This document shows, in pieces, positions 19,831 to 63,557 of a stretch of DNA of 64,000 nt. Under the pieces are notes generated by a model that made no database searches, was not told where the DNA came from, and saw nothing but the letters and a program-made list of their open reading frames with translations. A program made the position numbers and the translations under genes. The DNA is taken from positions 1 to 64,000 of the IMG/VR virus record IMGVR_UViG_3300026320_000001; one strand, written 5' to 3'. Origin of the DNA: a virus. Numbering within the stretch: position 1 is the stretch's first letter; each line of letters begins with the position of its first letter.

Positions 19831-20307
19831 ATGACAATCATTCATAAATCAGGAAATATTTTAGATGCAACAGAAAACATAATTATTCACCAAGTAAATT
19901 GTGAAGGTGTAATGGGTGCGGGTTTAGCAAAACAATTAAGAAATAAATGGCCTATAATATATACAGAATATAAAAAATTATGTGATGAAAATCGTATAAA
20001 ATTTATGTTGCTCGGAAAAGTTCAATATATTAAAGTTGATGAAAAAAAATATGTTGCAAATATGTTTTCACAATTAGGAATTGGAACTGACAAAATTCAA
20101 ACAATTTATTCTGATATGAAAAAAGGTCTTAAACGTATTGAACAAGGAGCAAGATTTGATGGTCTTTCAATAGCTCTCCCTTTTCAACTAGGATGTAATC
20201 GTGCTGGTGGAGATTGGGATGGCGTAGTATATCCAATGATTCAAGAAATTTTTAATATATCAGATGTGGATGTTGCAATTTATACATATGAATCAGAGGT
20301 CAAATGA
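19831..20307 (+). CDS. Macro-domain protein (ADP-ribose binding or hydrolase)
   Basis: NIIIHQVNCEGVMGAGLAKQ (about residues 11-30) is the macro-domain ribose loop, and PFQLGCNRAGGDWDGV the phosphate loop. 158 aa, a lone macro domain like the TARG1/DarG group (whose members reverse ADP-ribosylation) or Appr-1''-phosphatases that process a tRNA splicing by-product. Location between an RNA ligase and a nuclease allows either reading. The window also has a PARP at 62361, so eraser of ADP-ribose is plausible. Motif certain; substrate inferred. Confidence 0.9.
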   Translation: MTIIHKSGNILDATENIIIHQVNCEGVMGAGLAKQLRNKWPIIYTEYKKLCDENRIKFMLLGKVQYIKVDEKKYVANMFSQLGIGTDKIQTIYSDMKKGLKRIEQGARFDGLSIALPFQLGCNRAGGDWDGVVYPMIQEIFNISDVDVAIYTYESEVK

Positions 20308-20567
20308 CAATTGCTATAACAAATAAACAACATACATATATAAAAATAGTTCAATTTATGCAAGCAGACTCTAACAAAGAAATGTATAATAAATTAAATC
20401 TATTAATTGATATAATAAAAGTAGACGCAGATTTATCTCCATCGTCTGCCAGCCTTGATGTTTTTGGATTTAATTTATTTATATTCTCTTATGAACAATA
20501 TATTAAATTGTGTGAGGAATTGGATAATGACCCAAGATATTATTCAAAAAGTCACATTAGAAATTGA
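20304..20567 (+). CDS. Hypothetical protein, 87 aa
   Basis: ATGA overlap with the macro-domain gene. No family recognised. The C-terminal part overlaps the 20527 gene by 41 nt. Confidence 0.55.
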   Translation: MTIAITNKQHTYIKIVQFMQADSNKEMYNKLNLLIDIIKVDADLSPSSASLDVFGFNLFIFSYEQYIKLCEELDNDPRYYSKSHIRN

Positions 20568-20724
20568 AAATCTGAAATCTAAAAATAAAAAATATTGGTA
20601 TGATTTCAATGTAAATAAACAAGATTCTAAAAAATTAAAAGAATATTTTGAAAACATTGGATATAAAGTTGAATTGAAAGAATGTCGGGCTTGTAAATTA
20701 TTTGATATTATTATTGAATTTTAG
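20527..20724 (+). CDS. Hypothetical protein, 65 aa
   Basis: ATG 20527 follows GAGGAATTGGATA. Helical basic protein with a CRACK turn near the end. No family recognised. Confidence 0.5.
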   Translation: MTQDIIQKVTLEIENLKSKNKKYWYDFNVNKQDSKKLKEYFENIGYKVELKECRACKLFDIIIEF

Positions 20725-20732
20725 GAGTAATT

Positions 20733-21257
20733 ATGTATGTCGTACTCGACCTAGAAACAGGTTCTTTAAATCCAAATACCGGAGCAATTTGTTCAATAGC
20801 TTGTCTTGCTCTTGATGAAGATTTGAATGAAACTCATCGTTATTACACACTGGTGAATGAACCCGGCAAACTCGTAGAAGATGCCGCTCTTGCTATAAAT
20901 AAATTGACAAGAGAAGAAATTTCAAAAGGAAAACCTATTGAAAAAGTATTATCTGACTTGAAAATAATTATGAGAAATAGAATACCGATTGCTCACAATG
21001 GAAGGTTTGATTTTGGATTTCTTGCCGCAAGAGGATTTGAATTTGATGTTGCAATTGATACTTTAATGATTGCTAAAAAACTTTTTCCAAAACAAAAAAA
21101 TAATTTAACAGAACTTTGCCAAAGATTAAATATACAAGTTGAAAATACTCATAACTCATTAGGTGACTGTTTATTAACTGCTGAAGCACTTAGAAAAATG
21201 TCAAAGACTCAATGGCTGAACGCATTAGAACCTAGACCGATAGGAAAGAAAATATAA
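20733..21257 (+). CDS. DnaQ-like 3'-5' exonuclease (DEDDh)
   Basis: DLETG (residues 5-9), HNGRFDFGF and HNSLGDC give the ExoI (DxE), ExoII (Asp) and ExoIII (HxxxxD) motifs of the DEDDh family. 174 aa is a stand-alone domain. It could act as proofreader, RNase T-like trimmer of tRNA or nuclease in replication. RBS TTAGGAGTAATT. One-base overlap with the ATPase gene. Confidence 0.9.
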   Translation: MYVVLDLETGSLNPNTGAICSIACLALDEDLNETHRYYTLVNEPGKLVEDAALAINKLTREEISKGKPIEKVLSDLKIIMRNRIPIAHNGRFDFGFLAARGFEFDVAIDTLMIAKKLFPKQKNNLTELCQRLNIQVENTHNSLGDCLLTAEALRKMSKTQWLNALEPRPIGKKI

Positions 21258-22567
21258 TGGATTATCTTTTTCTGACTGGAATATTTGCCGCAATAGCAAC
21301 ATTATGGAATCAAATAAAAAATATATTAATTCAATTAAGAAGTATTTTTATTGTAACTATGCTTATACAATATGATGGTGCAAAAAGTGTTGGTTTATAT
21401 CTTTCTGAAAATGCAAAAATGTATGGTTTAGGTTTAAAACAATATACAACGCATAGTTTTATAATAAAATCAGTTGGAGAATTTAGAACAATACCATTTG
21501 AACTTGTTGGAAAAAATGGAACTATTTTTATTCTTGATAAAAAACCGTTGTTTGTTACTCGTGGCACAGACAACCAGCAGGGTACTGATAAATCCGATAC
21601 TGTTACTCAAGATTTAATATCATTAAAAATATCTTTTATTCGTGGACATTTTAATGCTGATGAAATTATGAAAAAATCAGCAGAATTTATGGATAAAAAA
21701 AATAGAAGTAATGGAAATAATAACAGAAGATTTGTCAGAAGAGTTTTTGGAATTAGTCAAAAACGTGCAATGATGTCAAAAGATTCTAATTCTGGTGAAT
21801 CTCCTGCAATTGCGTCAAGTAAAGGTTGGGATATTTCTGCAACATATGGAACTCGTATAATAGGATATAATTTTGAAGATATTGGTTCTGTGATGCCTTA
21901 TTTTGGAATCAAAGATATGTTTCTTTCTGATGATGCAGAAAATGCTATTCAAGAAATTAGACATTGGTTTAATAGTAAACAATGGTATAAAGAACATGGT
22001 ATTTCTTGGAAACGTGGATGGTTATTGCATGGTCAACCCGGAAATGGAAAAACAGTATTGGGAAGAGTTTTATCTGACGAATTAAATATGCCAATATTTT
22101 CATATGACCTTTCAAGTTTGAGTAATGATGAAATGGAATCTGGTTGGAGAGATATGATGTCTCATACACCATGCATTGCTATCATAGAAGATATTGATTC
22201 GGTATTTGATAAAAGGAAAAATTTAACTGGTGATTTAACTTTTGATTGTTTGCTTAATTGTATTGATGGAGTTGAACGTAGTGATGGAGTTTTTCTAATT
22301 ATTACAACAAATTATTTGGAAAAAATTGATTCTGCATTAGCTCAAATTGATAATGGAAAAGCTACTCGTCCATCAAGAATAGATAGAGTTATAGAAATGA
22401 CAAATCCAGATAAGAATGGGTTATATAAAATTGCAAATAGAATTTTAAAAGAATATCCTGATATGATTAATAATGTTGTTATAGATGGATATAATGATAC
22501 TGGCGCACAATTTCAAGAACGATGTGTAAAATTTGCATTAGATAGATTTTGGAAGGAAAAACAATAA
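21257..22567 (+). CDS. BCS1-like AAA+ ATPase, membrane anchored
   Basis: N-terminal hydrophobic segment (about residues 4-40), a BCS1-like middle domain, then Walker A GQPGNGKT (about 259-266), Walker B CIAIIEDID, sensor TTN and RPSRIDRVIEM arginine region. The BCS1 family is best known from mitochondria (Rieske protein translocation), and homologs occur in bacteria and large phages. Possible role: unfolding or moving membrane-associated protein. 436 aa; function in phage unknown. Confidence 0.85.
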   Translation: MDYLFLTGIFAAIATLWNQIKNILIQLRSIFIVTMLIQYDGAKSVGLYLSENAKMYGLGLKQYTTHSFIIKSVGEFRTIPFELVGKNGTIFILDKKPLFVTRGTDNQQGTDKSDTVTQDLISLKISFIRGHFNADEIMKKSAEFMDKKNRSNGNNNRRFVRRVFGISQKRAMMSKDSNSGESPAIASSKGWDISATYGTRIIGYNFEDIGSVMPYFGIKDMFLSDDAENAIQEIRHWFNSKQWYKEHGISWKRGWLLHGQPGNGKTVLGRVLSDELNMPIFSYDLSSLSNDEMESGWRDMMSHTPCIAIIEDIDSVFDKRKNLTGDLTFDCLLNCIDGVERSDGVFLIITTNYLEKIDSALAQIDNGKATRPSRIDRVIEMTNPDKNGLYKIANRILKEYPDMINNVVIDGYNDTGAQFQERCVKFALDRFWKEKQ

Positions 22568-23091
22568 TGAATTGGGAAGAAACATCAAAACTAAGAAGTG
22601 ATGCTGGACTTTATTCGGAAAATATTGATAAAGATAAATTATTGGTTCTTATAAAAAATGCTTGTAATAAAAATGATAATGATGAAGAATTAAAGGATTT
22701 AATTCATCATTGGACATCTGACCATTATATGTGGTTTAAGACAGATAAATATGTTTATGAAATTTTCGGAAAAATTGGTAGAGATATAAGCCTTGAATTA
22801 AGTGAAAGCGGTAGTCAAAGTTGGTGGACTTGGTTCACAGAATGCATGGAAAAAATAACAAAAGAATTAAATTCTGATATTTTGAAAGAAAAATCAGAAG
22901 AAAAATTAAAATCAATAACAAGAGATTATGCCTTTATTATTGAAGGTTGGTTGGGGAATTCTTGGAATGTTTCTTTGGAAAACATGAAACCTACCGAAGA
23001 AAAAAATATTCAATTTATTCAAAGTCAACTTGTATTTATTCTTAGACATTTGAATTCAGTAAATCAAGATTATCCATATGATTATGATTAA
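22567..23091 (+). CDS. Hypothetical protein, 174 aa
   Basis: ATG 22567 overlaps the ATPase stop; AAGGAAAAACAATA upstream. Mostly helical and acidic. Co-translated with the BCS1-like ATPase, so it may be a partner. No family recognised. Confidence 0.6.
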   Translation: MNWEETSKLRSDAGLYSENIDKDKLLVLIKNACNKNDNDEELKDLIHHWTSDHYMWFKTDKYVYEIFGKIGRDISLELSESGSQSWWTWFTECMEKITKELNSDILKEKSEEKLKSITRDYAFIIEGWLGNSWNVSLENMKPTEEKNIQFIQSQLVFILRHLNSVNQDYPYDYD

Positions 23092-23120
23092 TAAAATTTT
23101 AGAAAGATTGGAATTAAAAA

Positions 23121-23405
23121 ATGAATAAAAAATTACAAGAAAAAATTATAGAAAATTATGAATTTGCATTCAATAATTTTAATTTTTATAAAGTAAAAAT
23201 TGCAATGAATGCTTTAGATTGGCATTGGTCAACTGGCAAAGCCCCAACAATTAATGAAATGGAAGAGAATGTATATAGATTATTTCTACATGCTTTAAAT
23301 GGAAATTCCGGGTATTGTTCTTCCGGGGGTTTTGTTGTAGAAATTGAAGATGAACAAGTTTCAATTTATTTCAATATTGAAGAATCAATAAGTGTAGATA
23401 GTTAA
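23121..23405 (+). CDS. Hypothetical protein, 94 aa
   Basis: Contains an ALDWHWSTGKAPTINE pattern and GGFVVEI strand seen in small phage proteins of unknown role. No clear family. Confidence 0.55.
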   Translation: MNKKLQEKIIENYEFAFNNFNFYKVKIAMNALDWHWSTGKAPTINEMEENVYRLFLHALNGNSGYCSSGGFVVEIEDEQVSIYFNIEESISVDS

Positions 23406-23428
23406 TAAAATGACAATTTTATAAAGGA
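23405..23428 (+). repeat. Intercistronic mini-hairpin plus ribosome site
   Basis: ATAAAA, 6-nt loop, TTTTAT (23417-23422), AAAGGA (23423-23428). Confidence 0.6.
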
Positions 23429-23434
23429 ATATAA

Positions 23435-23731
23435 ATGGAAAAATTTCCAAGATATGAGATAGTAAAAATTGTGATGCTGGAAAGAAGGGGAGAACAATAT
23501 TTTAATTCGTGGAAAAATAAAGAGGACTTTGGCAGTTTATGGATTAGTGGAAGTGGTCTATATGAATTGATGGAAAATTGTAAAACTGATAGAGAAGCAG
23601 AAATTTTATTACACTATATTTTTTCTTTATCTGATAGTAAAGATGAACATGCTCATCAAACTTTAAATAACTTGTTGCTTATGCATTATCATTTACAAAA
23701 CAATGAAGATTTAGGATATAAAATAACATAA
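23435..23731 (+). CDS. Hypothetical protein, 98 aa
   Basis: AAAGGA upstream. Charged, helical C-terminus. No family recognised. Confidence 0.55.
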   Translation: MEKFPRYEIVKIVMLERRGEQYFNSWKNKEDFGSLWISGSGLYELMENCKTDREAEILLHYIFSLSDSKDEHAHQTLNNLLLMHYHLQNNEDLGYKIT

Positions 23732-23743
23732 AGGAAAAGAATA

Positions 23744-24169
23744 ATGGATATTGAATACATAATCAAAGAACCATGTCCAGAATGTAGGGGCGAATTAAAA
23801 TATTGGAATTCCAACTCTAATTATAGAGTTTTTTCTGGAATACAATGTACAAATTGTAATTATGCAACTAATAAAATTTCTATAAAAATTGAAGAAAAAT
23901 ATTCTAAAAAGAAACCTGTTAAAAATAAATCATCTAAAAAAATTGAAAAGGATGTTGTTATTCAATTGGTTGAATTGAGAATGTTTTTATCTGGCTATTT
24001 TATGGGTTTTATTCGAGATAAAAATTTTGATGACTTATCATTTGAATCAAAATACTTAAAGTTTTTAAATAAATTACCAAAAAAATTAATATACACAGAA
24101 AAAGAACTTGGTGATTTTGTTAAAAAACTAGATAAAATTTTATCAAGTGAAAAATATTTTATAAAATGA
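23744..24169 (+). CDS. Zinc-ribbon protein, 141 aa
   Basis: CPECRGEL ... CTNCNYAT (about residues 9-36) forms a four-Cys zinc ribbon; the C-terminal 100 residues are Lys-rich and helical. Could bind nucleic acid. ATGA overlap with the next gene. Confidence 0.65.
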   Translation: MDIEYIIKEPCPECRGELKYWNSNSNYRVFSGIQCTNCNYATNKISIKIEEKYSKKKPVKNKSSKKIEKDVVIQLVELRMFLSGYFMGFIRDKNFDDLSFESKYLKFLNKLPKKLIYTEKELGDFVKKLDKILSSEKYFIK

Positions 24170-24549
24170 CAAATAAAAAATTTCCTCAAAATTTTGTAGG
24201 TATGCCCGCCGCTATTATGTTAGAAGAATTCGGTTCACAAGTTTGGAGTGCGTTTGGTACACCCCCATATTTAACCGGGTCGAGTCTTTATACTAAAAAA
24301 TGGAGAGATGTTGATGTGCGCCTCATATTATCAGACGAAGAATATGAACAATGGGGATTTGGTAATCCAATTCAATGTCATCAGAATGGTAAATGGGTTT
24401 CTTTATGTTTGGCATTTTCTGCATTAGGAAAACAAATAACATCATTGCCCATTGATTTTCAGATTCAACAAAGAAGTAAAGCTAATAGAGATTTTAAAAA
24501 TGCTAGATTTTCATTAGGAAATATTGATTTGAGGATAATAAAAAAATGA
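24166..24549 (+). CDS. Nucleotidyltransferase-like protein
   Basis: GSS (residues 38-40) followed by KKWRDVDVRLIL (DVD at 48-50) fits the GSx ... DxD signature of the polymerase-beta superfamily; a third Asp candidate lies in LPIDFQIQ. 127 aa is the size of a minimal catalytic domain. Substrate unknown; could be a tRNA-modifying or antibiotic-type transferase. ATGA overlaps on both sides make it part of a tight operon. Confidence 0.65.
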   Translation: MTNKKFPQNFVGMPAAIMLEEFGSQVWSAFGTPPYLTGSSLYTKKWRDVDVRLILSDEEYEQWGFGNPIQCHQNGKWVSLCLAFSALGKQITSLPIDFQIQQRSKANRDFKNARFSLGNIDLRIIKK

Positions 24550-24935
24550 AAAATAAAAAAATTGACCCAAAATATATTGGTGTTCCAAATATTCAATTTT
24601 CTTTAATTTCTAAAAATGATGATAGAGAAAAAGAGTTTTCCAAACAAAGAATAGAGCGTGGCTTTGATAGTAGTGAAATATGGAGTCTGAGAGATACAAT
24701 TGCAAATTTTATTATTCCCCGATTGTCTTTTTATATTGAAAACATAGAAAGACTTGGTTCATCTCATGGAAATGCAAGCAATAAAGAAGAAGTGATAGCC
24801 TTGAAAAAAATTCTTAGAATGTTTGAATTAACCGCTAGAAATAATGGTTCTTTTATTCTAACCAAAGATGAAGAAAAAGAATTTGAAGAAGGAATTCTTT
24901 TGTTTCCTGAATGGTATTTATCAATGTGGACATAG
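24546..24935 (+). CDS. Hypothetical protein, 129 aa
   Basis: Residues about 36-95 (SLRDTIANFIIPRLSFYIEN...GSSHGNAS) resemble a helical domain found in phage proteins annotated only as hypothetical, with the pattern W-x-L-x-x-x-I-x-x-F-I-x-P-R-L. No function known. Translation coupled to 24166. Confidence 0.6.
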   Translation: MKNKKIDPKYIGVPNIQFSLISKNDDREKEFSKQRIERGFDSSEIWSLRDTIANFIIPRLSFYIENIERLGSSHGNASNKEEVIALKKILRMFELTARNNGSFILTKDEEKEFEEGILLFPEWYLSMWT

Positions 24936-24956
24936 TTTTATAAAAGGAAAATATAA

Positions 24957-25709
24957 ATGCTAATTAAAGATGATGTTTTACATATTTTAAAAAATTCAAT
25001 AGTTGATGAAGTTGAAAATATTTTATATCTCCCCAAAATTCAATTAGATAGAAAACTCTATGTAGATGTAAATAAAGTTCTTGAATCTATTGGTGGGGCA
25101 TGGAATAAAAAAATAAAAGGCCATGTTTTTGATAGTAATCCATCGGATATATTGGATGAAATAATTAATACGGGAAATTGGACTGATAAGAAAAAAGAAT
25201 ATCAATTTTTCAGAACACCAAAACATATTGTAAAACAAATGATTAAACTTTCTAATATTAATAAAACTGATGTTTTATTAGAACCATCTGCTGGTGATGG
25301 TGCAATTTTAGAAGAATTTCCAAAAGAAAATTCTTATTGGGCTTTTGAGTTGATGCCAGAAAATTGTGAAATTTTAAAATCAAAAGGATTTGTTGTTCAT
25401 GGAAATGATTTTATTGAAGCAGAAGAATTAAATGCAAAAAGTTTTGATAAAATTATTATGAATCCTCCTTTTACCAGACAACAAGATGTTCAACATATTT
25501 TTCATGCTTGGAAATATTATTTAAAAACTGGTGGTCGTTTAGTTTCGATTGTTTCTGAATCTCCATTTTTTAGAGAAAATAAACTAAGTCAAGAATTTAG
25601 AAAATGGCTTGATGATAACAATTCTAAGGTAATTGATTTAAATCCCGGAGATTTTAAAGAATCTGGAACAATGGTTAAAACAAGAATTATTATTGTGGAT
25701 AAATTATAA
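24957..25709 (+). CDS. N6-adenine-type DNA methyltransferase
   Basis: EPSAGDGAIL (about 109-118) is the SAM-binding motif I and NPPF (169-172) the catalytic motif IV of N6-adenine (or N4-cytosine) methyltransferases. The N-terminal 80 residues may be a small recognition or accessory domain with no nuclease motif. No cognate restriction gene is nearby, so it is probably a protective or regulatory orphan methyltransferase. ATG follows AAAAGGAAAATATAA. Confidence 0.9.
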   Translation: MLIKDDVLHILKNSIVDEVENILYLPKIQLDRKLYVDVNKVLESIGGAWNKKIKGHVFDSNPSDILDEIINTGNWTDKKKEYQFFRTPKHIVKQMIKLSNINKTDVLLEPSAGDGAILEEFPKENSYWAFELMPENCEILKSKGFVVHGNDFIEAEELNAKSFDKIIMNPPFTRQQDVQHIFHAWKYYLKTGGRLVSIVSESPFFRENKLSQEFRKWLDDNNSKVIDLNPGDFKESGTMVKTRIIIVDKL

Positions 25710-25710
25710 T

Positions 25711-25887
25711 ATGTTAATTATAACAGTTTTATTTATTTTATTTTGGGGTTTATTTGGAATAGGAGTTGGTTGGGCTTTATGGGAGAATTTCAAAAGAGAT
25801 ACAGCCATATTTGCCGGTATTTTGATGTGGCCTTTTTATTTAGCATACTATTTGATGAAGCATTTATTTTATGGGAAACATTATTAA
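25711..25887 (+). CDS. Small membrane protein, 58 aa
   Basis: Two hydrophobic segments (residues 1-25 and 33-50). Starts one base after the methyltransferase stop. Role unknown. Confidence 0.55.
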   Translation: MLIITVLFILFWGLFGIGVGWALWENFKRDTAIFAGILMWPFYLAYYLMKHLFYGKHY

Positions 25888-25888
25888 T

Positions 25889-26188
25889 ATGAAACTTGAA
25901 ATCCCACAAGATACAATTGTAATTCGTAAAATCAATTTACGTGATAAAACAAAGGGTCAATGGCATATATTTACAAAATCAAATAGTAATGGATTTACTG
26001 AAAAAAATGTTCCAGATTATCCGAATTGGTGGAATTCCAAGAGTCATCATACTTTATGCGGAAAATATTTTGATGACCGTAAATCAGAATATGGATTTTT
26101 ATTTGATTATAGTATTGAATTTGCTACTGTTACAGAAATTAAGAAAATTTGTCCCTCTTGCTGGCCTTATCAAAAGACCCAAAAATAA
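25889..26188 (+). CDS. Hypothetical protein, 99 aa
   Basis: Has a Trp/His-rich part, HTLCGKYF and a late CPSCWPYQ, a possible split zinc site. No family recognised. Confidence 0.55.
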   Translation: MKLEIPQDTIVIRKINLRDKTKGQWHIFTKSNSNGFTEKNVPDYPNWWNSKSHHTLCGKYFDDRKSEYGFLFDYSIEFATVTEIKKICPSCWPYQKTQK

Positions 26189-26202
26189 GTATAAAATAAC
26201 CC

Positions 26203-26231
26203 TTGACAAAATGCTCCTCTTATGATAAAAT
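26203..26231 (+). promoter_or_regulatory. Sigma70-type promoter with overlapping palindrome
   Basis: TTGACA, 17 bp, TAAAAT. An inverted repeat AATACCT (26229-26235)/AGGTATT (26244-26250) is centred on the predicted start point, which looks like a repressor operator. Confidence 0.8.
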
Positions 26232-26257
26232 ACCTATTAAATAAGGTATTCATAAAA

Positions 26258-26276
26258 GGAGTGTTTTATTTACTCC
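26258..26276 (+). other. Leader hairpin that includes a GGAG sequence
   Basis: GGAGT (26258-26262) pairs with ACTCC (26272-26276) in the leader of the DUF932 gene; the working ribosome site AAAGGAG lies further on (about 26287). Confidence 0.4.
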
Positions 26277-26298
26277 ACCATATAAAAAGGAGAAAATT

Positions 26299-27336
26299 AT
26301 GCCCGCTAATATAATGGATAATGATAAGGTTGTTCTTTCAGGTGATGAACCAGCTTGGCATGGATTGGGTGAATATTTTGAAATTCCAATTTCTGCCGAA
26401 AAGGCTCATGATGAAATGGGTGGAAGTTTTACTCTCTATCAAAAGCCAGTTGGTGTACAATTTGATGATGGAGAATTTATTGAAGTTCCAAAGTCATTTG
26501 CAATTGTGCGTGGTGAAACAAATAAGGATAACCGTAAGTTGGTTTTTGGATATACAACTGACCATTATACAGTCATTCAACCAATTGATATTATAAAAAA
26601 GTTTGATGAACGTGTTGGGGTTTCAATTTCAAGTTTAGGTTTTATTCAAGATGGTCGTAAAATGTTTTTGTCTTGGAAACTTCCTTCTTTTGAAGTTGTA
26701 AAGGGTGATGAAATAAAATTGTACGGTTGTTTGTTAGTTGGATATGATAAGATATTTTCAAGTCGTATCAATATTGGAACAATTCGTATTGTCTGTGAAA
26801 ATACTTTTATGGCTAATATGAATGAAGCTGAACAAGAAAATAAAAGTAATCGTGGTCGTGGAACAATCTATTCCGGCAAGCATTCTAATTCAAAATTACT
26901 TTTTGAATTGGGAGAATGGATGAATCATATTCAAGGAAATGCTGAAAAAGAACAAGCTTTACTACAATCATTTTTTAAGAATTTGGTCAATAAACCAATT
27001 AAACATGAAAAGCAAGCGCAAGATTTAATTTATACTGCATGGCCTGACCCTGCTCCATTTAATCCAGATTCAATTCCTTTGGCTTTACATGATAAGGAAC
27101 AAGGTAAAATTGATTTAAAGGCCGCAAGAGTTGAAAAAATTCGTAATGGTGTATATGATTTATACACTGGTAGCGAAGGAATTGCTATTGATGAAAATTA
27201 TTATGGACTCTTCAATGCTTGCACACAATATTTCAACCATAAAATGATTTCAAAAAAGGATGATGCATTTTCAATTTCATGGGGTGGTCGTTCGGCTGAA
27301 ATGAATATGTTTGCTGAAGTATTAAAGAATAATTAA
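26299..27336 (+). CDS. DUF932 / phage-plasmid-like protein (TIGR03299 type)
   Basis: PAWHGLGEYFE near the start, FGYTTDHYTVIQP, RKMFLSWKLP and RIVCENTFMAN in order match the DUF932 family, common in phages and plasmids with unknown biochemical role. 345 aa is normal length. It is the only gene of its transcript: own promoter with operator-like palindrome and own terminator, which suggests strong, regulated expression. RBS AAAAAGGAGAAAATT. Confidence 0.87.
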   Translation: MPANIMDNDKVVLSGDEPAWHGLGEYFEIPISAEKAHDEMGGSFTLYQKPVGVQFDDGEFIEVPKSFAIVRGETNKDNRKLVFGYTTDHYTVIQPIDIIKKFDERVGVSISSLGFIQDGRKMFLSWKLPSFEVVKGDEIKLYGCLLVGYDKIFSSRINIGTIRIVCENTFMANMNEAEQENKSNRGRGTIYSGKHSNSKLLFELGEWMNHIQGNAEKEQALLQSFFKNLVNKPIKHEKQAQDLIYTAWPDPAPFNPDSIPLALHDKEQGKIDLKAARVEKIRNGVYDLYTGSEGIAIDENYYGLFNACTQYFNHKMISKKDDAFSISWGGRSAEMNMFAEVLKNN

Positions 27337-27343
27337 TTATAGA

Positions 27344-27375
27344 TTTAGAGCCTGTTGAGACATACAGGCTCTAAA
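27344..27375 (+). terminator. Probable intrinsic terminator
   Basis: TTTAGAGCCTGT (27344-27355) pairs with ACAGGCTCTAAA (27364-27375), a 12-bp stem after the DUF932 gene. The T-run after it is poor (TTGCCTC). Confidence 0.65.
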
Positions 27376-27382
27376 TTGCCTC

Positions 27383-27411
27383 TTGACAAAATAATCATAA
27401 TCTGCTATAAT
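27383..27411 (+). promoter_or_regulatory. Sigma70-type promoter
   Basis: Perfect TTGACA and TATAAT with 17-bp spacer, 8 nt after the terminator. Confidence 0.87.
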
Positions 27412-27442
27412 GTATATATCAATCTAAGAAAGGATGATAAAC

Positions 27443-28282
27443 ATGTTTCCAGAATATCAAGAATTTTTTAATTCAAAATCAGATAAAAGTATTCACACTC
27501 TACGCTCATATCATCAAAACATTGATTCTTTTATTAGTGCTTTGAAAATTAAGAAAGTAAAAGATTTGGAAAAAGTATCTGCTGGTACATTGCGTACTTA
27601 TCGTGATTCTTTGAAAATTTCAAATGCTTCAAAAAATACTTGGACTCGTGTTTTATCATCTTTCTTTAGTTTTATGAATGAACAAGAATATATTGATTTC
27701 AATGTTTTTGATAAGGTAAAATATCTTTCTCTTACTGAAAAAGAAAAAACAATCAATATGCCAACACAAGATGAAATTAAAATGATTATTGAATCTTGTG
27801 AAAACAAAACTACAAAATTGATGTTGAATATTATGTCACGTATTGCTTTACGTCGTGATGAATTATCAAAAATCCAAATTAAAGATATTGACGCTGATGG
27901 TCGTATTATTATTCATGGAAAAGGAAGCAAAATTAGAATGGTGAAACTTCCTTTGGATATTTTTGAAACAATTAAGGCTCATATTAAAAATAAACGTGTA
28001 AAGTCAGAATATCTATTTAGCTATGATGGTCATAAAATTACGGGCGATGCAATTTATATCCGTATTAATGGATTTATTGAAACCTTGAATATTTCTGATG
28101 AACGTAAAAAGGCAATTGCACATCCTCATGCTCTACGTCATCGTGCATTGACCACCACTTACAACGTAACTAAAGACCCATATGCTGTAAAGAATTTGGC
28201 TGGTCATTCCAATTTAGCTATTGGCGAAAGATATATTCATGCTGAATCAAATATTTATGATGATGTTACGGAGAATTTGTAG
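27443..28282 (+). CDS. Tyrosine recombinase (integrase/XerC-like)
   Basis: An N-terminal SAM-like core-binding domain (to about residue 95) is followed by a catalytic domain with ALRRDEL (Arg I), KGSKIRMV (Lys), HPHALRHR (His-x-x-Arg), AGHSNLAIGERY (His and nucleophile Tyr): all five catalytic residues visible. 279 aa. It could integrate the phage or resolve genome dimers. No attachment-site repeat or adjacent tRNA was found, so resolvase is as likely as integrase. ATG 27443 has AAAGG 9 nt upstream. Confidence 0.9.
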   Translation: MFPEYQEFFNSKSDKSIHTLRSYHQNIDSFISALKIKKVKDLEKVSAGTLRTYRDSLKISNASKNTWTRVLSSFFSFMNEQEYIDFNVFDKVKYLSLTEKEKTINMPTQDEIKMIIESCENKTTKLMLNIMSRIALRRDELSKIQIKDIDADGRIIIHGKGSKIRMVKLPLDIFETIKAHIKNKRVKSEYLFSYDGHKITGDAIYIRINGFIETLNISDERKKAIAHPHALRHRALTTTYNVTKDPYAVKNLAGHSNLAIGERYIHAESNIYDDVTENL

Positions 28283-28288
28283 AAACAA

Positions 28289-28603
28289 ATGAAATATAAT
28301 ATTGAAATAAATCACTATACAGTAGCTTTTACTTTGATAACAATTTATGATTTTGTTTCTACATATTTATTTGTTCATTATCATACCAGTGTTGAATCAA
28401 ATCTTCTCGTTAATGCTTTTGGTTGGATACCAGCAATTACAATAAAAGTAATTTTAAGTATTGTTGTTTTGGCTTTATTGTCCAATAATAAAATAATGAG
28501 ATATGAAAAATTAGGTTTTGTATATGGCTTAGGATTTTTAATTGTCTTTTTTAATTCAGTTCCAGCCATGCAAGCAATAAAAATTATTCTTGGTTATGGA
28601 TAA
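28289..28603 (+). CDS. Membrane protein, DUF5658-like
   Basis: 104 aa with three hydrophobic segments. DFVSTYLFVHYHTSVESNLL near residue 17 resembles the D-x-x-x-T...E-x-N-x-L pattern of DUF5658 membrane proteins. Function unknown. Starts 6 nt after the recombinase gene. Confidence 0.6.
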   Translation: MKYNIEINHYTVAFTLITIYDFVSTYLFVHYHTSVESNLLVNAFGWIPAITIKVILSIVVLALLSNNKIMRYEKLGFVYGLGFLIVFFNSVPAMQAIKIILGYG

Positions 28604-28617
28604 AATAGTAATTTTAT
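28600..28617 (+). repeat. Intercistronic mini-hairpin
   Basis: ATAAAA, 6-nt loop, TTTTAT, then AAAGAGG and the ATG at 28631. Confidence 0.55.
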
Positions 28618-28630
28618 AAAGAGGAACAAA

Positions 28631-28867
28631 ATGGATATAAATATTTATTCTTGGCATCCAGAACCAACAAATATATTAACTAAAAATGGTTATATAAAAA
28701 TAGATAATTCTTCAGTAGGTTGTATCTTTGTGTCGCCTTTTGAAAATAAAAATCTTCAAATACTCATTGAAGATTTGACAGAAATTGGATTATATGTTAT
28801 GATATTTCCTGAATATAAAAAAACAAATACTATTCATGTTGATACAAGAATGTTTAAACAGAGATAA
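28631..28867 (+). CDS. Hypothetical protein, 78 aa
   Basis: AAAGAGGAACAAA upstream. Alpha/beta composition. No family recognised. Confidence 0.55.
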   Translation: MDINIYSWHPEPTNILTKNGYIKIDNSSVGCIFVSPFENKNLQILIEDLTEIGLYVMIFPEYKKTNTIHVDTRMFKQR

Positions 28868-28892
28868 AAATTATAAACAAGAGGAGTCTAAA

Positions 28893-29192
28893 ATGGGACG
28901 AAAAGCAGGAAGTAAAAATAAGGTCAAAGAACCAATTTCTGTTGAAAAATCTTATGAAGAACTTACTGAAAAAAAGACAAAAGAAAAAGAAGTTTACACT
29001 TTCAAGTTAGATATTCCAAAGGTAAGAAATATCTCTGCTCTATCTGGTTACATTGAAAACTTCAATGGAAAAACCTATTCTAGTGCTATGCAAAATGCTT
29101 TTGATTGGGCAAAGCAATATGATATTACATTGATTAATTATTTTGAACAAGAATATCCCGGTGGTTCTATTCTTGTAGGATATGAAAGATAA
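28893..29192 (+). CDS. Hypothetical protein, 99 aa
   Basis: ATG 28893 follows AGAGGAGTCTAAA. Starts MGRKAGSKNK, an AT-hook-like basic opening, then charged helix. Possible DNA-binding; no family recognised. Confidence 0.6.
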   Translation: MGRKAGSKNKVKEPISVEKSYEELTEKKTKEKEVYTFKLDIPKVRNISALSGYIENFNGKTYSSAMQNAFDWAKQYDITLINYFEQEYPGGSILVGYER

Positions 29193-29203
29193 AAGAGGAA
29201 AAA

Positions 29204-29518: not shown

Positions 29519-29525
29519 GTGAAAA

Positions 29526-40308: not shown

Positions 40309-40758
40309 ATGGACATTGGAAGTGGTAAAGGATTTCCAGCATCAAATTTATCTAATTTTTCACCACACCCTTTTGAAATTGATGGTGTTATGTGTAATAG
40401 CATGGAGGGATTTCTTCAATCTTTAAAATTTAAAGATGTTGCCATGCAAGAATATGTTTGCACATTAGTTGGATTAAAGGCAAAATTTAAAGGCAAAGAT
40501 AAAAAATGGTGGAAGACTCAAACTCTCTGGTGGAGAGGTGTTGAAATTGATAGGCATTCAAATGAATATCAATTACTTTTAGATAGAGCATATAATGAAT
40601 TGTCCAAAAATGAATCTTTCAAAAGAGCATTGTTGGCAACAGGAAATTCATCTTTGAAACATTCCATTGGAAAAAATGATGCTCATAAAACCATTTTGAC
40701 TGTGAATGAATTTTGCGGTAGATTATTAAAAATCAGAGAAGGATTGAAAAATGAATGA
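40309..40758 (+). CDS. NADAR-family protein (ADP-ribose processing)
   Basis: GFPASNLSNFSPHPFEIDGV and CNSMEGFLQSLKFKD near the N-terminus, then KFKGKDKKWW and a final LTVNEFCGRLLKIRE, are the NADAR (YbiA-like) family pattern. Known members hydrolyse ADP-ribosyl-guanine or riboflavin-pathway intermediates, and some antagonise DarT toxins. 149 aa is full length. With the macro domain (19831) and PARP (62361) it suggests ADP-ribosylation turnover. AGAGGTTTATAAT upstream. Confidence 0.9.
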   Translation: MDIGSGKGFPASNLSNFSPHPFEIDGVMCNSMEGFLQSLKFKDVAMQEYVCTLVGLKAKFKGKDKKWWKTQTLWWRGVEIDRHSNEYQLLLDRAYNELSKNESFKRALLATGNSSLKHSIGKNDAHKTILTVNEFCGRLLKIREGLKNE

Positions 40759-42511: not shown

Positions 42512-42853
42512 ATGGCTATTTATGTAAAAAATGAAAAGAAAGATGGAGACAAATCTTTTCCGGGTAGAATGGTATATATCGGAAGACCATCAATACTTGG
42601 AAATCCATATTCTCATTTGTCAAATACTTTGGCTGAATTCAAGGTAAAAAATAGAAAAGAAGCCATTGACAAATATAAGGAAATGTTTTATAATAGGATA
42701 TTGTACGATGTTGAATTTAGAACGGCAATTGATTCTATTGTAAAAGATGCTTTTATTGGTCATAATATTTATTTGTTCTGCTGGTGTAAACCATTTGCTT
42801 GTCATGGTGATATTATAAAAGAATATATTGAAAGTAAATTGAGGAATAAATGA
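42512..42853 (+). CDS. DUF4326 protein
   Basis: VYIGRPSILGNPYS near residue 23, KEAIDKYKEMF, and LFCWCKPFACHGDII match the DUF4326 family order (GRPxxxGNP...LxCWCxPxxCHGD). Cys-Trp-Cys and Cys-His-Gly-Asp may bind metal. Function not known. 4-nt overlap with the phosphoesterase gene. Confidence 0.87.
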   Translation: MAIYVKNEKKDGDKSFPGRMVYIGRPSILGNPYSHLSNTLAEFKVKNRKEAIDKYKEMFYNRILYDVEFRTAIDSIVKDAFIGHNIYLFCWCKPFACHGDIIKEYIESKLRNK

Positions 42854-56176: not shown

Positions 56177-58114
56177 ATGCTAATACCTAAAGATTTAGTT
56201 ATAGAAGCAAGACAAAAATTTGGTGCTAATGCGGCAGGAATTATAGCCAAAGATTTAAACATCAAAGATTATGATAATGAAAATTTAAAGGGGTGCTGTC
56301 CTTTTCATAATGAGGATACACCATCTTTTGTTTGGTATGAAAAAGGTGATTATTTTAAATGTTTTGGTTGTCAAAAAACATATAATATTATTGACCATTA
56401 TATGAATTTTGATAAACTTTCTTATGTTGATTCTGTTGAAAAATTATTTAAAGAATCACAAACATCTTTTAGATTTTCTGAAAAGAATATAAAAAAGAAG
56501 GATTATCAATATCCAAAATATGAAATAGATGAAAATGAAAAATCATATGATAGAACCAGTGTTGAAAAATATCTTGCAACAAGAGGAATATCAAAAAATA
56601 CATTAGATAAGTTTGATATATTGTCGGATAAAAAAGGTAATATCACATATAATTATAGAAATACAAATGGTGTTCTTACAATGGTGAGATACCGTCTTGG
56701 AAGAATTGCTGAAAAAACAGATTCATCAAAATTTTGGTCACAACCAAATGCAGATACGACTCCATTACTTTTTGGAATGAATAACACTAGTCCGCTTTCA
56801 ACACTTGTTTTGACTGAAGGTGAATTGGATGCGTTATCTGTTTATGAAGCCGGGCATCAAAATTCTGTTTCAGTTCCTTTTGGTGCAAATAATTATTCTT
56901 GGATTGAAGAAAATTTTGATTATTTACAACAATTTGAAACCATAATTGTTTGGTCAGATAATGATGAACCCGGAATAAAAATGCGTAAGGAAGTTTGTTC
57001 TCGGCTAGGTTCTGATAAACAAAAAGTTTTATTTGTCAATCTTCCTCTTGAAATTGAAAATGAAAAAATAAAAGATATTAATCAAGTTCTAGTAAAATTT
57101 GGAAAAGAAAAAGTTTTAGAATTTATTAATAATGCCGAAGAACAAAAGATAGAAGGAATATTAGACCTTTCAGAAGCAGAAGATTTTGACCTTGAAAAAA
57201 GAGAAGGTCTTTATTCTGGAATAAAAGAAATTGATGATATGATTTATAAATTTTTCTTTGGCAATGTTGTTTCTGTTACTGGTTTTGCCGGAGGAGGAAA
57301 ATCAAGTCTTGTTAATCAATTGTTTATCAATGAAGCATTACATCAAGGATATGATGTAACTGTATTTTCTGGTGAACTTCCTTCTGATATGTTACGTCAA
57401 TGGGTTGAAATCAATATGGCTGGAAGAGAACATATTGAAGAACACAAAAATAAATTTAAAAGAATTATTAAAATTGATACCATTAAAAAAATGAAAGACT
57501 GGTATAAGGGCAGAATAAATTATTATGAAGCAGAAGATAATCATATTGATGCTGTTTTAGGCAAGGCCGAAGAAACCATTAGAAAAAAGGGCGTTAAAGT
57601 TTTAGTGCTTGATAATTTAGCCACATTGGGACTAGGTGAAGACGATAACAATACTTATGCAAAACAAAAACAAGCAATTGTAAAAATAAAGAATTTTGCA
57701 AATAAATTTAATATTCTAGTTGTTCTTGTTGTTCATCCTCGTAAACCAGCAAGTGGAATTACAAGTGTTCAATCCGGTTATGAAATGTCAGGAAGCGGTG
57801 ATTTATTCAACTTAGTTCAATATAATTTTTCTGTCAAAAGAATAACAAAAAAAGAAAAAGAAGGTAAGAAAAAAAGAGGTGGGGGATGGGAAATAGAACC
57901 CTGTTTATATGATGTAAGAATAGAATTTTTCAAAAATCGTATAACAGGACAACTTGGTGATTGCTTTTTATATTTTGATTATCCAAGTTATCGCTTTTAT
58001 ATTACACCAGAACAACTTTGGAAAAGATTTTCTTGGGACAAAAATACTTTGCCATTGCGAACAGATGACCCAAATGAGAAATATAGAGAAATGCCAGAAG
58101 AGTTTAAAACATAA
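56177..58114 (+). CDS. Primase-helicase (T7 gp4-like)
   Basis: Zinc-binding domain CCPFHNEDTPSFVWY...CFGC (residues 35-75), TOPRIM LVLTEGELDALS with VWSDNDEPG (about 212-265), and a DnaB/gp4-type helicase with Walker A GFAGGGKSS (about 373) and Walker B VLVLDN (about 478). 645 aa is full length. It primes lagging strands and unwinds DNA at the fork. RBS TTGGAGAAAAT. Overlaps the nuclease gene by 1 nt. Confidence 0.94.
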   Translation: MLIPKDLVIEARQKFGANAAGIIAKDLNIKDYDNENLKGCCPFHNEDTPSFVWYEKGDYFKCFGCQKTYNIIDHYMNFDKLSYVDSVEKLFKESQTSFRFSEKNIKKKDYQYPKYEIDENEKSYDRTSVEKYLATRGISKNTLDKFDILSDKKGNITYNYRNTNGVLTMVRYRLGRIAEKTDSSKFWSQPNADTTPLLFGMNNTSPLSTLVLTEGELDALSVYEAGHQNSVSVPFGANNYSWIEENFDYLQQFETIIVWSDNDEPGIKMRKEVCSRLGSDKQKVLFVNLPLEIENEKIKDINQVLVKFGKEKVLEFINNAEEQKIEGILDLSEAEDFDLEKREGLYSGIKEIDDMIYKFFFGNVVSVTGFAGGGKSSLVNQLFINEALHQGYDVTVFSGELPSDMLRQWVEINMAGREHIEEHKNKFKRIIKIDTIKKMKDWYKGRINYYEAEDNHIDAVLGKAEETIRKKGVKVLVLDNLATLGLGEDDNNTYAKQKQAIVKIKNFANKFNILVVLVVHPRKPASGITSVQSGYEMSGSGDLFNLVQYNFSVKRITKKEKEGKKKRGGGWEIEPCLYDVRIEFFKNRITGQLGDCFLYFDYPSYRFYITPEQLWKRFSWDKNTLPLRTDDPNEKYREMPEEFKT

Positions 58115-58920
58115 TGTCTGATTATGATTTTATTATTGATAATATGAAATTTAGTTACTCCAACATAAGCACATTTGAAACATGTGCTTATGCTTGGAAA
58201 TTAACGTATATTGATACGTTAAAAAGAGAGCCAAATTTTTTTGCTGAATTTGGAACTTTATGTCATGATATTCTGGAAAAATATTTTAAGGGTGAATTAG
58301 ATTTATTTAATTTGCCGAATTATTATGAAAAACATTTTTATGAAGTTGTTCAATCAATTTCTCTTTCCGGAACAATGACTCAAAATTATTATGATGCTGG
58401 CTATGATTTTTTTACTAATATTGATATAAATCCTGATGATTTTGAAATATTGGAATCAGAATTAAAAACAAGTTCGATTTGGAATGGAATAGAACTTGTT
58501 GTTAAACCAGATATTGTTTTGAAAGAAAAATCAACCGGCAAAATAATTCTTATGGATTATAAAACATCCATTATCAAGAAAAATAAAAATGGGTCAATAG
58601 CAAAATCTGATATTGATAAACTAAATGGATATAAAAAACAATTATTTTTATATGCTTTCTTTTTATCTCAAAATCAAAAAACTAAAATAGAAGAAATTCG
58701 ACTATGGTTTATTCGCAATAATACATTTGAGATATTTCAATATACAGAAAAAGAAGCAATTGAAACTTTAAATTGGTTTATGAAAATTGTGGCTAAAATA
58801 AAAGAAGAAGAAAAATTTATTGCCAATATAAGCAATCCATTTTTTTGCAATAATTTATGTGGAGTTCGTATGTCCTGTGAATTCAGGATACAAAATCCAG
58901 AAAAAGCATCAGAATCTTAG
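58114..58920 (+). CDS. PD-(D/E)XK nuclease, RecB/Cas4-like
   Basis: FSYSNISTFETCAYAWKLTY (about residues 13-32) is the conserved opening of RecB-family nucleases. PDIVL and ILMDYKTS give the Asp and Glu/Asp-x-Lys. A CNNLCGVRMSC Cys cluster near the end recalls the Fe-S-binding Cys of Cas4-like proteins. 268 aa. Replication/recombination role likely. Its stop lies in the loop of the terminator. Confidence 0.85.
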   Translation: MSDYDFIIDNMKFSYSNISTFETCAYAWKLTYIDTLKREPNFFAEFGTLCHDILEKYFKGELDLFNLPNYYEKHFYEVVQSISLSGTMTQNYYDAGYDFFTNIDINPDDFEILESELKTSSIWNGIELVVKPDIVLKEKSTGKIILMDYKTSIIKKNKNGSIAKSDIDKLNGYKKQLFLYAFFLSQNQKTKIEEIRLWFIRNNTFEIFQYTEKEAIETLNWFMKIVAKIKEEEKFIANISNPFFCNNLCGVRMSCEFRIQNPEKASES

Positions 58921-59980: not shown

Positions 59981-60154
59981 ATGACATATTTAATTGATGA
60001 CCTTGTAAAAACTAACAAACAAATAGATGGAAAGTGGGTGATTGCACGCCCATTGCTATCATATGATTTATTAAATCGAATAGTTGATTGCTGGCTTGTA
60101 TTAATTGGAAAAGCCGATGCAGTAATTTATATTAGTGGAAAGAAAAATAAATGA
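59981..60154 (+). CDS. Hypothetical protein, 57 aa
   Basis: AAAGGAAAATAA upstream; ATGA overlap with the Thg1-like gene. Hydrophobic in the middle, possibly soluble core. No family recognised. Confidence 0.55.
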   Translation: MTYLIDDLVKTNKQIDGKWVIARPLLSYDLLNRIVDCWLVLIGKADAVIYISGKKNK

Positions 60155-60873
60155 ATGATGAACTTGGAACACGTATGAAAGAATTTTATGAAAATAGAAG
60201 TCAATCATATCTTGCACGTAGAATACCAGCCATTATAAGAATTGACGGAAAAGCGTTCCATACTTTTACAAATAAATTTACAAAACCATTTGATAATGTT
60301 ATGATTAAATCCATGCAATTAACAGCTAAAAAATTATGCGCTCAAATTCAAGGTGCTAAAATTGCATATACTCAAAGTGATGAAATTAGTCTTTTATTAA
60401 CTGATTGGGATAATTTAAAAACCGATGCATGGTTTGATTATAATATTCAAAAAATTACAAGTGTTTCTGCAAGTATGACAACACTATATTTTAATAATAT
60501 TTTTGCAGAAATTTGTACGGTTGAACAAAGCGATAAGATTGATACAGCCTTATTTGACGCAAGAGTCTTTTCAATTCCAAAAGAAGATGTGAATAATTAT
60601 TTCTGGTGGAGACAAATTGATTGTATTAGAAACTCAATTCAAATGCTGGCACAATCTAATTTTAGTCATAAAGAATTGCAAGGAAAAAATCAAGACGAAT
60701 TGAAATCAATGTTATCAGAAAAGAATATTGAATTTGATAATATGAAAATTCATTTGCAACGAGGTTCTTCTGTTGTCAAACAATTGACAGAATTTGGTGA
60801 AAATAGATGGACAATTGATGAAGAAATTCCTTTGTTCAAAGATGAAAAATATTATATTGAAAGGTACTTATAA
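60151..60873 (+). CDS. Thg1-like 3'-5' polymerase (tRNAHis guanylyltransferase family)
   Basis: RIDGKAFHTF (about residues 30-39) and AYTQSDEISLLL (about 71-82) are the two metal-binding motifs of the Thg1 palm; FDARVFSIP and CIRNSIQMLAQ follow as in Thg1. 240 aa is typical. Thg1 adds G-1 to tRNA-His; Thg1-like proteins repair 5'-truncated tRNAs. Because this phage's tRNA-His already encodes G-1, a repair/editing role is favoured by inference. Fits the RNA-repair theme. Confidence 0.92.
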   Translation: MNDELGTRMKEFYENRSQSYLARRIPAIIRIDGKAFHTFTNKFTKPFDNVMIKSMQLTAKKLCAQIQGAKIAYTQSDEISLLLTDWDNLKTDAWFDYNIQKITSVSASMTTLYFNNIFAEICTVEQSDKIDTALFDARVFSIPKEDVNNYFWWRQIDCIRNSIQMLAQSNFSHKELQGKNQDELKSMLSEKNIEFDNMKIHLQRGSSVVKQLTEFGENRWTIDEEIPLFKDEKYYIERYL

Positions 60874-62101: not shown

Positions 62102-62130
62102 TTGACAAAACAACTGGTTTATAGTATAAT
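62102..62130 (+). promoter_or_regulatory. Sigma70-type promoter of the PARP operon
   Basis: Perfect TTGACA and TATAAT with 17-bp spacer. Confidence 0.87.
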
Positions 62131-62151
62131 GAACAGATTAGGAGAAAACAT

Positions 62152-62358
62152 ATGGAAATATTTAGTCTATTTATTGGTGGTTTCATAGGTTTGGTAATTG
62201 CATGTTTGATTGTTGCCATTCTATCAACTATTGATTACATTCTTTGGAAAGAATATTATAATTTATATAAATCTATTTATGGATTATATTCTATTTTAAC
62301 TGTTTTTCCATTTGGATTTTATATGTATATCAGATTGAAAATTAATAAGGATATATAA
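62152..62358 (+). CDS. Small membrane protein, 68 aa
   Basis: TTAGGAGAAAACAT upstream. Two hydrophobic segments (residues 3-29 and 44-60). Transcribed with the PARP gene 2 nt downstream, so a possible membrane partner; unproven. Confidence 0.6.
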   Translation: MEIFSLFIGGFIGLVIACLIVAILSTIDYILWKEYYNLYKSIYGLYSILTVFPFGFYMYIRLKINKDI

Positions 62359-62360
62359 AT

Positions 62361-63557
62361 ATGCAACCATTATATCTGTTGAAAATTGAAGTAGATGGAA
62401 ATGCAAATAAATATTATCGTATGATTCCCAATGGAGATTTATTTACTGCCGAATGGGGCAGAGTGGGTTCTAATTCTCAAACTATGGATTATTCAATTAA
62501 TGATTGGGATAAAAAGTTACACGAGAAATTAAGAAAAGGATATGTTGACCAAACTCATCTAGTATCTGAAATCACATCTAATTCTAAATCAAGAGAATAT
62601 TCTGATATAAAAAACAAATCAATTGCAACTATTGTTCAAAGATTACAATCTATGGCAAAAATAGCCATTGAAGAAAATTATACAATTTCATCCAGTAATG
62701 TTACTCAAAAAATGATTGATGAAGCACAAGCATTAATTAATAATCGTTTTTCTTTGGATTCCAATGTTGATTATTTTAATGAACAATTGATTCAATTATT
62801 TAGAATTATCCCAAGAAAAATGAAAAAAGTTTCTGATAATATTTCTCAATCTAAAAAAGATTTTGGAATTATTATTCAAAGAGAACAAGATTTGCTTGAC
62901 ACAATGAAGGGTCAGGTAATTCAACAATCTGTTTTGAATGCCGATGATAATATTGATAATGACAAGCAAACAATTCTTGATGTATTAGATTTACAATTTT
63001 CCGAAATAAATAAGACAGAAGAAAAACAAATTAAATCACATCTTGGTTCTATTGATAATAAATTTTATCAAGCTTGGAAGGTTGTCAATAATAAAACTCA
63101 AAATATATTTGACAAATTTATAAAACAAAATAATATCAATGAAAAAAAATTACTTTTTCATGGTTCAAAAAATGAGAATTATTGGAGTATCATAAATAGC
63201 GGATTGATTTTACGACCAAATGCAGTTATTACCGGAAAGATGTGGGGTTTGGGAATATATTTTGCGTCTGCGGCAGTAAAAAGTTTAAATTATAGTTCTT
63301 TGAAAGGAAGTTATTGGACTGGTGGAACATCTAATTCTGGATTTTTATCTATATTTGATGTTGCATATGGAAATCCATATAATGTTTATAATTTTGATAG
63401 TAAATATTATGAATTAGATTATAATAAATTACAAAAATTTTCACCAAATGCAAATTGTATACATGCAAGAGCAGATAGGGGAATGTTGAAAGCCGATGAA
63501 ATTGTGATATATAAAGAAGAACAATGTACTATAAAATATTTAGTGGAATTGAGATGA
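62361..63557 (+). CDS. WGR-domain poly(ADP-ribose) polymerase
   Basis: The N-terminal WGR domain has NKYYRM...FTAEWGRVGS (about residues 16-38). A helical region (about 90-250) corresponds to the PARP regulatory domain. The catalytic domain has LLFHGSKN (His267), GLGIYFAS (Tyr300) and ADEIVIY (Glu380), the complete H-Y-E triad for NAD+-dependent ADP-ribosylation. The layout matches bacterial/eukaryotic WGR-PARPs activated by DNA ends. Such PARPs are rare in phages. AAAGGATATATAAAT... upstream; second gene of its transcript. Substrate unknown. Confidence 0.93.
   Translation: MQPLYLLKIEVDGNANKYYRMIPNGDLFTAEWGRVGSNSQTMDYSINDWDKKLHEKLRKGYVDQTHLVSEITSNSKSREYSDIKNKSIATIVQRLQSMAKIAIEENYTISSSNVTQKMIDEAQALINNRFSLDSNVDYFNEQLIQLFRIIPRKMKKVSDNISQSKKDFGIIIQREQDLLDTMKGQVIQQSVLNADDNIDNDKQTILDVLDLQFSEINKTEEKQIKSHLGSIDNKFYQAWKVVNNKTQNIFDKFIKQNNINEKKLLFHGSKNENYWSIINSGLILRPNAVITGKMWGLGIYFASAAVKSLNYSSLKGSYWTGGTSNSGFLSIFDVAYGNPYNVYNFDSKYYELDYNKLQKFSPNANCIHARADRGMLKADEIVIYKEEQCTIKYLVELR

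Follow-up and report, generated by a model that had tools for sequence, protein, structure and literature searches.

ADP-ribose-related genes of the phage genome

The window, which is the whole stretch of DNA that was analysed, comprises the first 64,000 nucleotides of the record of a large bacterial virus. A preliminary description of this DNA had joined a PARP, a macrodomain protein, a NADAR protein and a DUF4326 protein into one ADP-ribose network, and all four reading frames, starting at 62361, 19831, 40309 and 42512, are present. The features relevant here are:

19831..20307, + strand: ALC1-like macrodomain of 158 aa, Q-type, probable partner of the PARP 42 kb away (phrog_335, 1.2e-35; structure model)
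40309..40758, + strand: NADAR of the T4 gp30.3 family, predicted guanine-ADP-ribose hydrolase (Pfam Phage_30_3, PF08010, 9.2e-53)
42512..42853, + strand: DUF4326 protein of 113 aa (Pfam DUF4326, 1.8e-14, 54.6 vs 25 bits)
56177..58920, + strand: DnaG/DnaB primase-helicase and PD-(D/E)XK nuclease, the replication neighbourhood of the PARP (Pfam, PHROGs)
62152..62358, + strand: hydrophobic ORF of 68 aa, occupying the slot of the macrodomain gene in most relatives (no Pfam match)
62361..63557, + strand: WGR-PARP of 398 aa (Pfam PARP 1.5e-22, WGR 2.4e-7)

A DnaE-type polymerase gene lies further on, at genome positions 72256-75480. The genome in the record is complete, measures about 147.6 kb and carries a direct terminal repeat of 127 nt, so the distance between the macrodomain and PARP genes is real. 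A nucleotide search of phages returned no close isolate. The PARP locus is also found in a MAG contig labelled Bacteroidetes (11.2 kb identical). Despite this label, a Clostridia-type bacterium is the probable host, since the nearest relatives of the PARP are from Tissierellia, other Clostridia and environmental phages.

That a phage carries these four genes is in itself not new. Phage PARPs have been published (Perina et al. 2014, PMC4245714), and two further works treat phage PART/PARP, Macro, NADAR and DUF4326 as components of an NAD+-ADPr network that co-occur above chance (Iyer et al. 2022, PMC9503650; jumbo phages, PMC7824862). Their location in one window is by itself weak evidence for linkage, because the macrodomain, the gp30.3-type NADAR and DUF4326 recur in 686, 1,455 and 200 of 50,697 phage records, respectively.

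Structure of the WGR-PARP

The PARP consists of a WGR domain (aa 4-65), a predicted helical, HD-like region (aa 86-194) and a catalytic domain (aa 213-397). The WGR domain and complete H-Y-E triad ascribed to it earlier are borne out by the Pfam matches and by an alignment of 59 phage PARPs, in which H267, Y300 and E380, together with G33 and R34 of the WGR domain, are invariant. Pfam PARP_reg was not detected; the AlphaFold2 model (pLDDT 84.3) places helices between the WGR and catalytic domains. For bacterial WGR-PARPs, models had already been noted to contain a regulatory domain that escapes detection by Pfam (PMC5966428). The best PDB match of the model, over its full length, is the WGR-HD-CAT assembly of PARP1 on a DNA break (4dqy_C, E 3.9e-18, TM 0.65), and the top matches are PARP1 and PARP2, both bound to DNA breaks. 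We read the protein as a PARP1/2/3-like ADP-ribosyltransferase that is probably activated by DNA breaks. To our knowledge, no function has been established for any bacterial or phage WGR-PARP.

The hydrophobic ORF at 62152..62358 ends 2 nt before the PARP gene. It was excluded as a macrodomain, having no Pfam match.

Macrodomain genes accompany PARP in related phages

Relatives were collected with alignment queries where possible, because single-sequence scans with the macrodomain, DUF4326 and DnaE gave few or none. The gene immediately upstream of PARP encodes a macrodomain in 65 of 84 related loci. In eight more loci the macrodomain gene is within 1 kb; there a homing-endonuclease-like or other insertion often separates the two and the macrodomain gene is once found downstream. 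With PARPs clustered at 90% identity, the arrangement persists in 46 of 53 clusters. The spacing is mostly 9-13 nt (range -16 to +15 nt, median 11), and the macrodomain is the only neighbour family with a fixed offset from PARP. Replication genes or a DNA ligase occur within 10 kb of PARP in 51 of 60 well-covered loci. A gene cluster beside PARP (cluster 6) was rejected as a third operon member; it mixes homing endonucleases with DNA ligases, which the clustering had chained together.

A macrodomain was found in 32 of 34 PARP-carrying records, with none found in the other two, and in 2 of 28 PARP-less relatives, a control set of other large contigs retrieved via the DnaE of the phage and carrying PARP in 0 of 28 cases. 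The corresponding Fisher p value of 6e-13 is indicative, as the records are phylogenetically non-independent and the contigs of the control set are on the whole shorter and may be less complete.

Contigs of clostridial genomes carry the pair as well (Lacrimispora amygdalina, [Clostridium] citroniae and a Ruminococcus MAG). No PARP-side macrodomain is present in the PARP-bearing isolate phages Cellulophaga phi4:1, Klebsiella 05F01 and XacN1, nor does one adjoin the chromosomal PARPs of Cytophagales. Isolate phages gave PARP matches in 15 records and TARG1-like macrodomain matches in 12, with no record common to both among the matches listed. Plasmid PARPs are distant, and the one plasmid locus examined has no annotated macrodomain neighbour.

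Two macrodomain subtypes occupy the same position

Most partners read 'HCISGDFALGAGI...NLVTK...HKPTY...IGCGLDxLxW' and resemble human TARG1 (PDB 4j5r, 6.1e-26), with K84 and D125 aligned. Both Lys84 and Asp125 are kept in 40 of 57 paired macrodomains, and the Lys in about 50. About nine of the 57 keep the Lys and have lost the Gly-Ala-Gly (ADP-ribose) loop and the Asp at D125; their sequences suggest a role in binding or inhibition.

The second subtype, which includes the window macrodomain, has Gln at the Lys position and is SCO6735-like. The window protein falls under the Pfam cut-off (15.2 vs 22 bits) and is supported by its PHROGs family and an AlphaFold model (pLDDT 88.5); in the PDB, this model best matches the macrodomains of DarG, BT1257, SCO6735 and TARG1. 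Its Q81, at the position of TARG1 K84, is invariant in 14 related macrodomains, and it reads 'GCNRAGGDW' for 'GCGLDRLQW'. Since the catalytic Lys is absent, we rejected the protein as a TARG1 orthologue. It was likewise rejected as a DarG, given the absence of Lys80, a length of 158 aa against a model of 338 positions, and a score of 78.1 against the NCBIfam cut-off of 250 bits. The Gln at the Lys position, an ALC1-like fold and a Foldseek match to 5e3b (TM 0.81/0.87) place it with SCO6735.

The two subtypes form separate macrodomain clades and fill the same slot upstream of PARP. The window macrodomain is 41-49% identical to the PARP-side macrodomains of six loci (L019, L020, L021, L033, L042 and L078). 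The PARPs of these Q-type pairs fall with that of the window in one clade of 27 rows (support 100/99), which also holds loci where the genes are not adjacent (L026, L032, L044, L054, the MAG locus L107 and the C. tagluense locus L109). TARG1-type pairs are spread over the remainder of the phage PARP tree and part of this clade. The window genome and two others of this clade (G003 and G007) have no PARP-adjacent macrodomain, and each encodes a Q-type macrodomain elsewhere. On comparison of these loci, the most economical account is that a Q-type macrodomain replaced the TARG1-type partner in the sub-clade of the window and was then relocated in some genomes. As branching inside the Q-type clade is not resolved, we make no claim of strict orthology for the window macrodomain.

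The two genes form a linked pair in most relatives and lie 42 kb apart in the window, where we infer their pairing from the relatives. Q-type macrodomains are, moreover, frequent in PARP-less phages (686 records with similar macrodomains; five near isolates without PARP). Because of this frequency and the distance from PARP, the window macrodomain may serve substrates other than the product of the PARP.

NADAR and DUF4326

The window NADAR retains E33 and K40, the catalytic Glu and Lys, and the phage-type H118 in an alignment to T4 gp30.3. It shares the Pfam family with that protein and is 38% identical to it, and 64-67% identical to those of some other T4-like phages. In vitro, T4 gp30.3 strips the ADP-ribose off guanine in DNA, but it does not rescue DarT1 toxicity (PMC11125620); T4 NADAR is active also on guanosine in RNA, and NADARs are inactive on phosphate ends (PMC11833690).

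The preliminary description had cast the PARP as a writer with the macrodomain and NADAR as two erasers, and had proposed co-occurrence in related phages as a check. For the macrodomain, the adjacency and the counts above support this. For NADAR they do not: the gp30.3 type occurs in 2 of 34 PARP-positive and 2 of 28 PARP-negative records, and any NADAR in 10 of 34 and 4 of 28 (p=0.22). DUF4326, found in only 2 of 34 PARP-carrying records, drops out of the proposed network, which holds for PARP plus macrodomain only. PARP is absent from the five nearest gp30.3-bearing contigs, and the NADAR neighbours in those contigs are not shared with the window phage, except for replication genes in one. 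Because of this lack of co-occurrence, the PARP-less contigs and the unshared neighbours, NADAR and DUF4326 are best read, from gene content, as independent accessories unlinked to the PARP.

Relation to known systems

Like human PARP1/2/3 and TARG1 (C6orf130), the phage system combines a WGR domain, a predicted helical region and an H-Y-E catalytic domain with, in most relatives, a partner carrying Lys84 and Asp125. Unlike the human proteins, the phage PARP shows no zinc fingers or BRCT domain, the two genes form one operon in relatives, and the window macrodomain lacks both catalytic residues of TARG1. DarTG is similarly a two-gene system of ADP-ribosyl writer and macrodomain eraser, and its DarG has a similar macrodomain fold; however, the phage writer is a WGR-PARP and not DarT, and the window macrodomain has neither Lys80 nor the C-terminal domain of DarG. 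The ALC1-like macrodomains SCO6735 and BT1257 share a similar fold and the 'ANM..Q.G' motif, in which Gln takes the position of the catalytic Lys, but identity is only 25-27%. Cellulophaga phage phi4:1 (PMC4245714), a phage of similar size, also has a WGR-PARP near a DNA ligase gene; its PARP is, however, 30% identical, and its macrodomain lies elsewhere in the genome.

The NAD+-ADPr network work covers the same components, Macro/NADAR co-occurrence and ART-hydrolase pairs (ART-ARG, sirtuin-Macro), while neither a WGR-PARP with a macrodomain nor a TARG1-like partner is among the pairs described in the sections examined (PMC9503650, PMC7824862). As described there, that survey drew on complete viral proteomes, whereas the present pair comes from metagenomic phages and clostridial genome contigs. 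The literature searched contained no description of a PARP-TARG1 operon in a phage.

Alternative explanations

The reading that we regard as probable, if well short of certain, is that of a PARP whose marks are reversed or limited by a macrodomain ADP-ribosylhydrolase, both made by a large phage from a clade associated mostly with Clostridia, with NADAR and DUF4326 acting separately in counter-defence. The writer-eraser pair is supported by the adjacency in most relatives, by the co-occurrence counts and by two macrodomain subtypes in one slot. A less probable reading, still deserving serious attention, is that the window macrodomain, NADAR and DUF4326 each work independently in counter-defence, against ADP-ribose signals of the host or toxins of the DarT type, and that the PARP separately modifies the host. 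Iyer et al. argue that in phages Macro, NADAR and DUF4326 serve chiefly to counter ADPr derivatives of the host, and that they occur together in large phages (PMC9503650), guanine-ADPr is hydrolysed in vitro by T4 gp30.3 (PMC11125620), the nearest non-PARP relatives of the window macrodomain are from isolate phages, and the four genes lie 2-42 kb apart. Against this stand the tracking of PARP by the macrodomain and their contiguity in most relatives, with window-type macrodomains adjoining or lying near PARP in six sub-clade mates. It would be rather unlikely, though by analogy with DarTG conceivable, that the pair serves as a toxin-antitoxin system or in superinfection exclusion, in which case the PARP would become toxic upon DNA damage or infection by a rival phage and the macrodomain would protect. 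The tight hydrolase-first operon resembles ART/hydrolase toxin-antitoxin pairs, the macrodomains are DarG-like by model match, degenerate ones could be inhibitors, and ART-hydrolase pairs are described in phages (PMC9503650); yet the usual setting is a replication module, PADLOC-DB holds no system matching the PARP, and the pair is split in several genomes.

The window macrodomain gene follows an RNA ligase gene at a distance of three genes, and the genome encodes two RNA ligases, a Pnkp-like kinase, RlaP, a CCA-type enzyme and Thg1. This setting would agree with an ADP-ribose-1''-phosphate phosphatase in RNA repair, as would the Appr-1-p processing annotation of related phage proteins. However, no KptA-type gene, the source of the metabolite, was found in the genome, the related isolate phages examined have no RNA ligase annotated beside the macrodomain, and G003 and G007 have no shared RNA-repair neighbour. 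We therefore rejected this role, which we consider improbable. The least credible proposal, to which we give very little weight, is that of a full network in which the macrodomain, NADAR and DUF4326 are all dedicated to processing the marks of one PARP writer. All four genes do occur in one genome, but PARP-carrying records show no enrichment of NADAR or DUF4326, and NADARs take ADPr off guanine but do not act on thymidine or phosphate ends (PMC11833690, PMC11125620); on the co-occurrence counts, the four-gene network was rejected.

Proposed function of the PARP-macrodomain pair

PARP1-type enzymes acting without the HPF1 cofactor modify mainly Glu and Asp. TARG1, through Lys84 and Asp125, acts on Glu/Asp-ADPr and also reverses thymidine-ADPr (T-ADPr) in DNA (PMC9411070, PMC8501950); it is reportedly inactive on Ser-ADPr. 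SCO6735, with Gln85, removes T-ADPr and also protein ADPr (PMC9411070), and a bacterial TARG1 removes PAR from proteins (PMC6397177). A phage PARP with a TARG1-like hydrolase would thus fit a cycle on Glu/Asp or on DNA ends.

Across the clade at large the two genes form one tight operon, hydrolase gene first and PARP second, usually amid polymerase, primase, helicase and ligase genes. The usual hydrolase is TARG1-like; in the sub-clade of the window an SCO6735-like Gln macrodomain took its place, which in the window genome and two mates is located elsewhere. In the writer-eraser reading, the WGR domain and helical region would sense breaks or nicks in replicating phage DNA or in degraded host DNA. 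The catalytic domain would then modify acidic residues of nearby proteins (the PARP itself, replication proteins or host proteins) and possibly DNA ends, and the macrodomain would clear these marks so that replication can proceed. Comparison of the genomes shows the pairing of the genes, their intact catalytic motifs, the change of partner and the replication setting; from these we infer activation by DNA, targets at Asp/Glu or DNA ends, and reversal of the marks that the PARP itself makes.

That a macrodomain recurs here, and in two different subtypes, speaks for a need for reversal, and the PARP-hydrolase operon beside replication genes gives a concrete two-protein hypothesis open to assay. 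We tentatively suggest that a large uncultivated phage lineage, known mostly from Clostridia-associated sequences and with a complete, reversible PARP1/TARG1-like operon in its replication module, uses break-triggered ADP-ribosylation either to control how it replicates or to mark DNA and proteins of the host. If true, viruses would have an equivalent of the PARP cycle that eukaryotes use in DNA damage. The PARP1-TARG1 logic of eukaryotes would then extend to phages, which would provide natural enzyme pairs for assays.

Macrodomain-PARP pair

At nine related loci (L046, L070, L071, L073, L075, L076, L077, L079 and L089), the macrodomain encoded by the gene before the WGR-PARP gene has degraded ADP-ribose-binding loops and lacks Asp125. 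Judging from their sequences, these PARP-paired macrodomains may act as binding-only inhibitors. In relatives, the pair is broken up by insertions similar to an AP2-domain gene, which here is inserted between PARP and its conserved downstream neighbor and probably encodes a homing endonuclease:

window 63563-64000, on to genome position 64249 (3563-4249 of L228, a stretch of the same genome): AP2-domain protein

NADAR gene

No plus-strand ORF of at least 60 aa was found overlapping the gp30.3-type NADAR gene (window 40309-40758). The internal 30.3' (75 aa) of the T4 gp30.3 gene therefore lacks a counterpart of that size here. In Bacillus phage FADO (L102), a COG3236-annotated (NADAR-type) protein is encoded two genes upstream of a window-type macrodomain.

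RNA-related genes

The window carries an extensive RNA repair gene set (17898-36496, 41883-43422, 60151-60873 and 8587-9270), comprising two RNA ligases, a Pnkp-like AAA/HD kinase, an RlaP nucleotidyltransferase, a CCA-type enzyme, a second nucleotidyltransferase, a metallophosphatase and Thg1. Among 21 tRNA genes (45064-53384) lies a gene whose product is possibly Ro60/TROVE-like:

window 48744-50249: DUF2828/DUF7788/VWA protein

Genome ends and lifestyle

The 147,693-base record has a direct terminal repeat, its first 127 nt matching its last 127. An identical 11.2-kb PARP locus is also present in MAG contig NGFH01000003.1 (147,646 bases), likely a phage mis-binned as Bacteroidetes. A temperate lifestyle is hinted at by one encoded enzyme:

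window 27434-28282: tyrosine recombinase (Phage_integrase)
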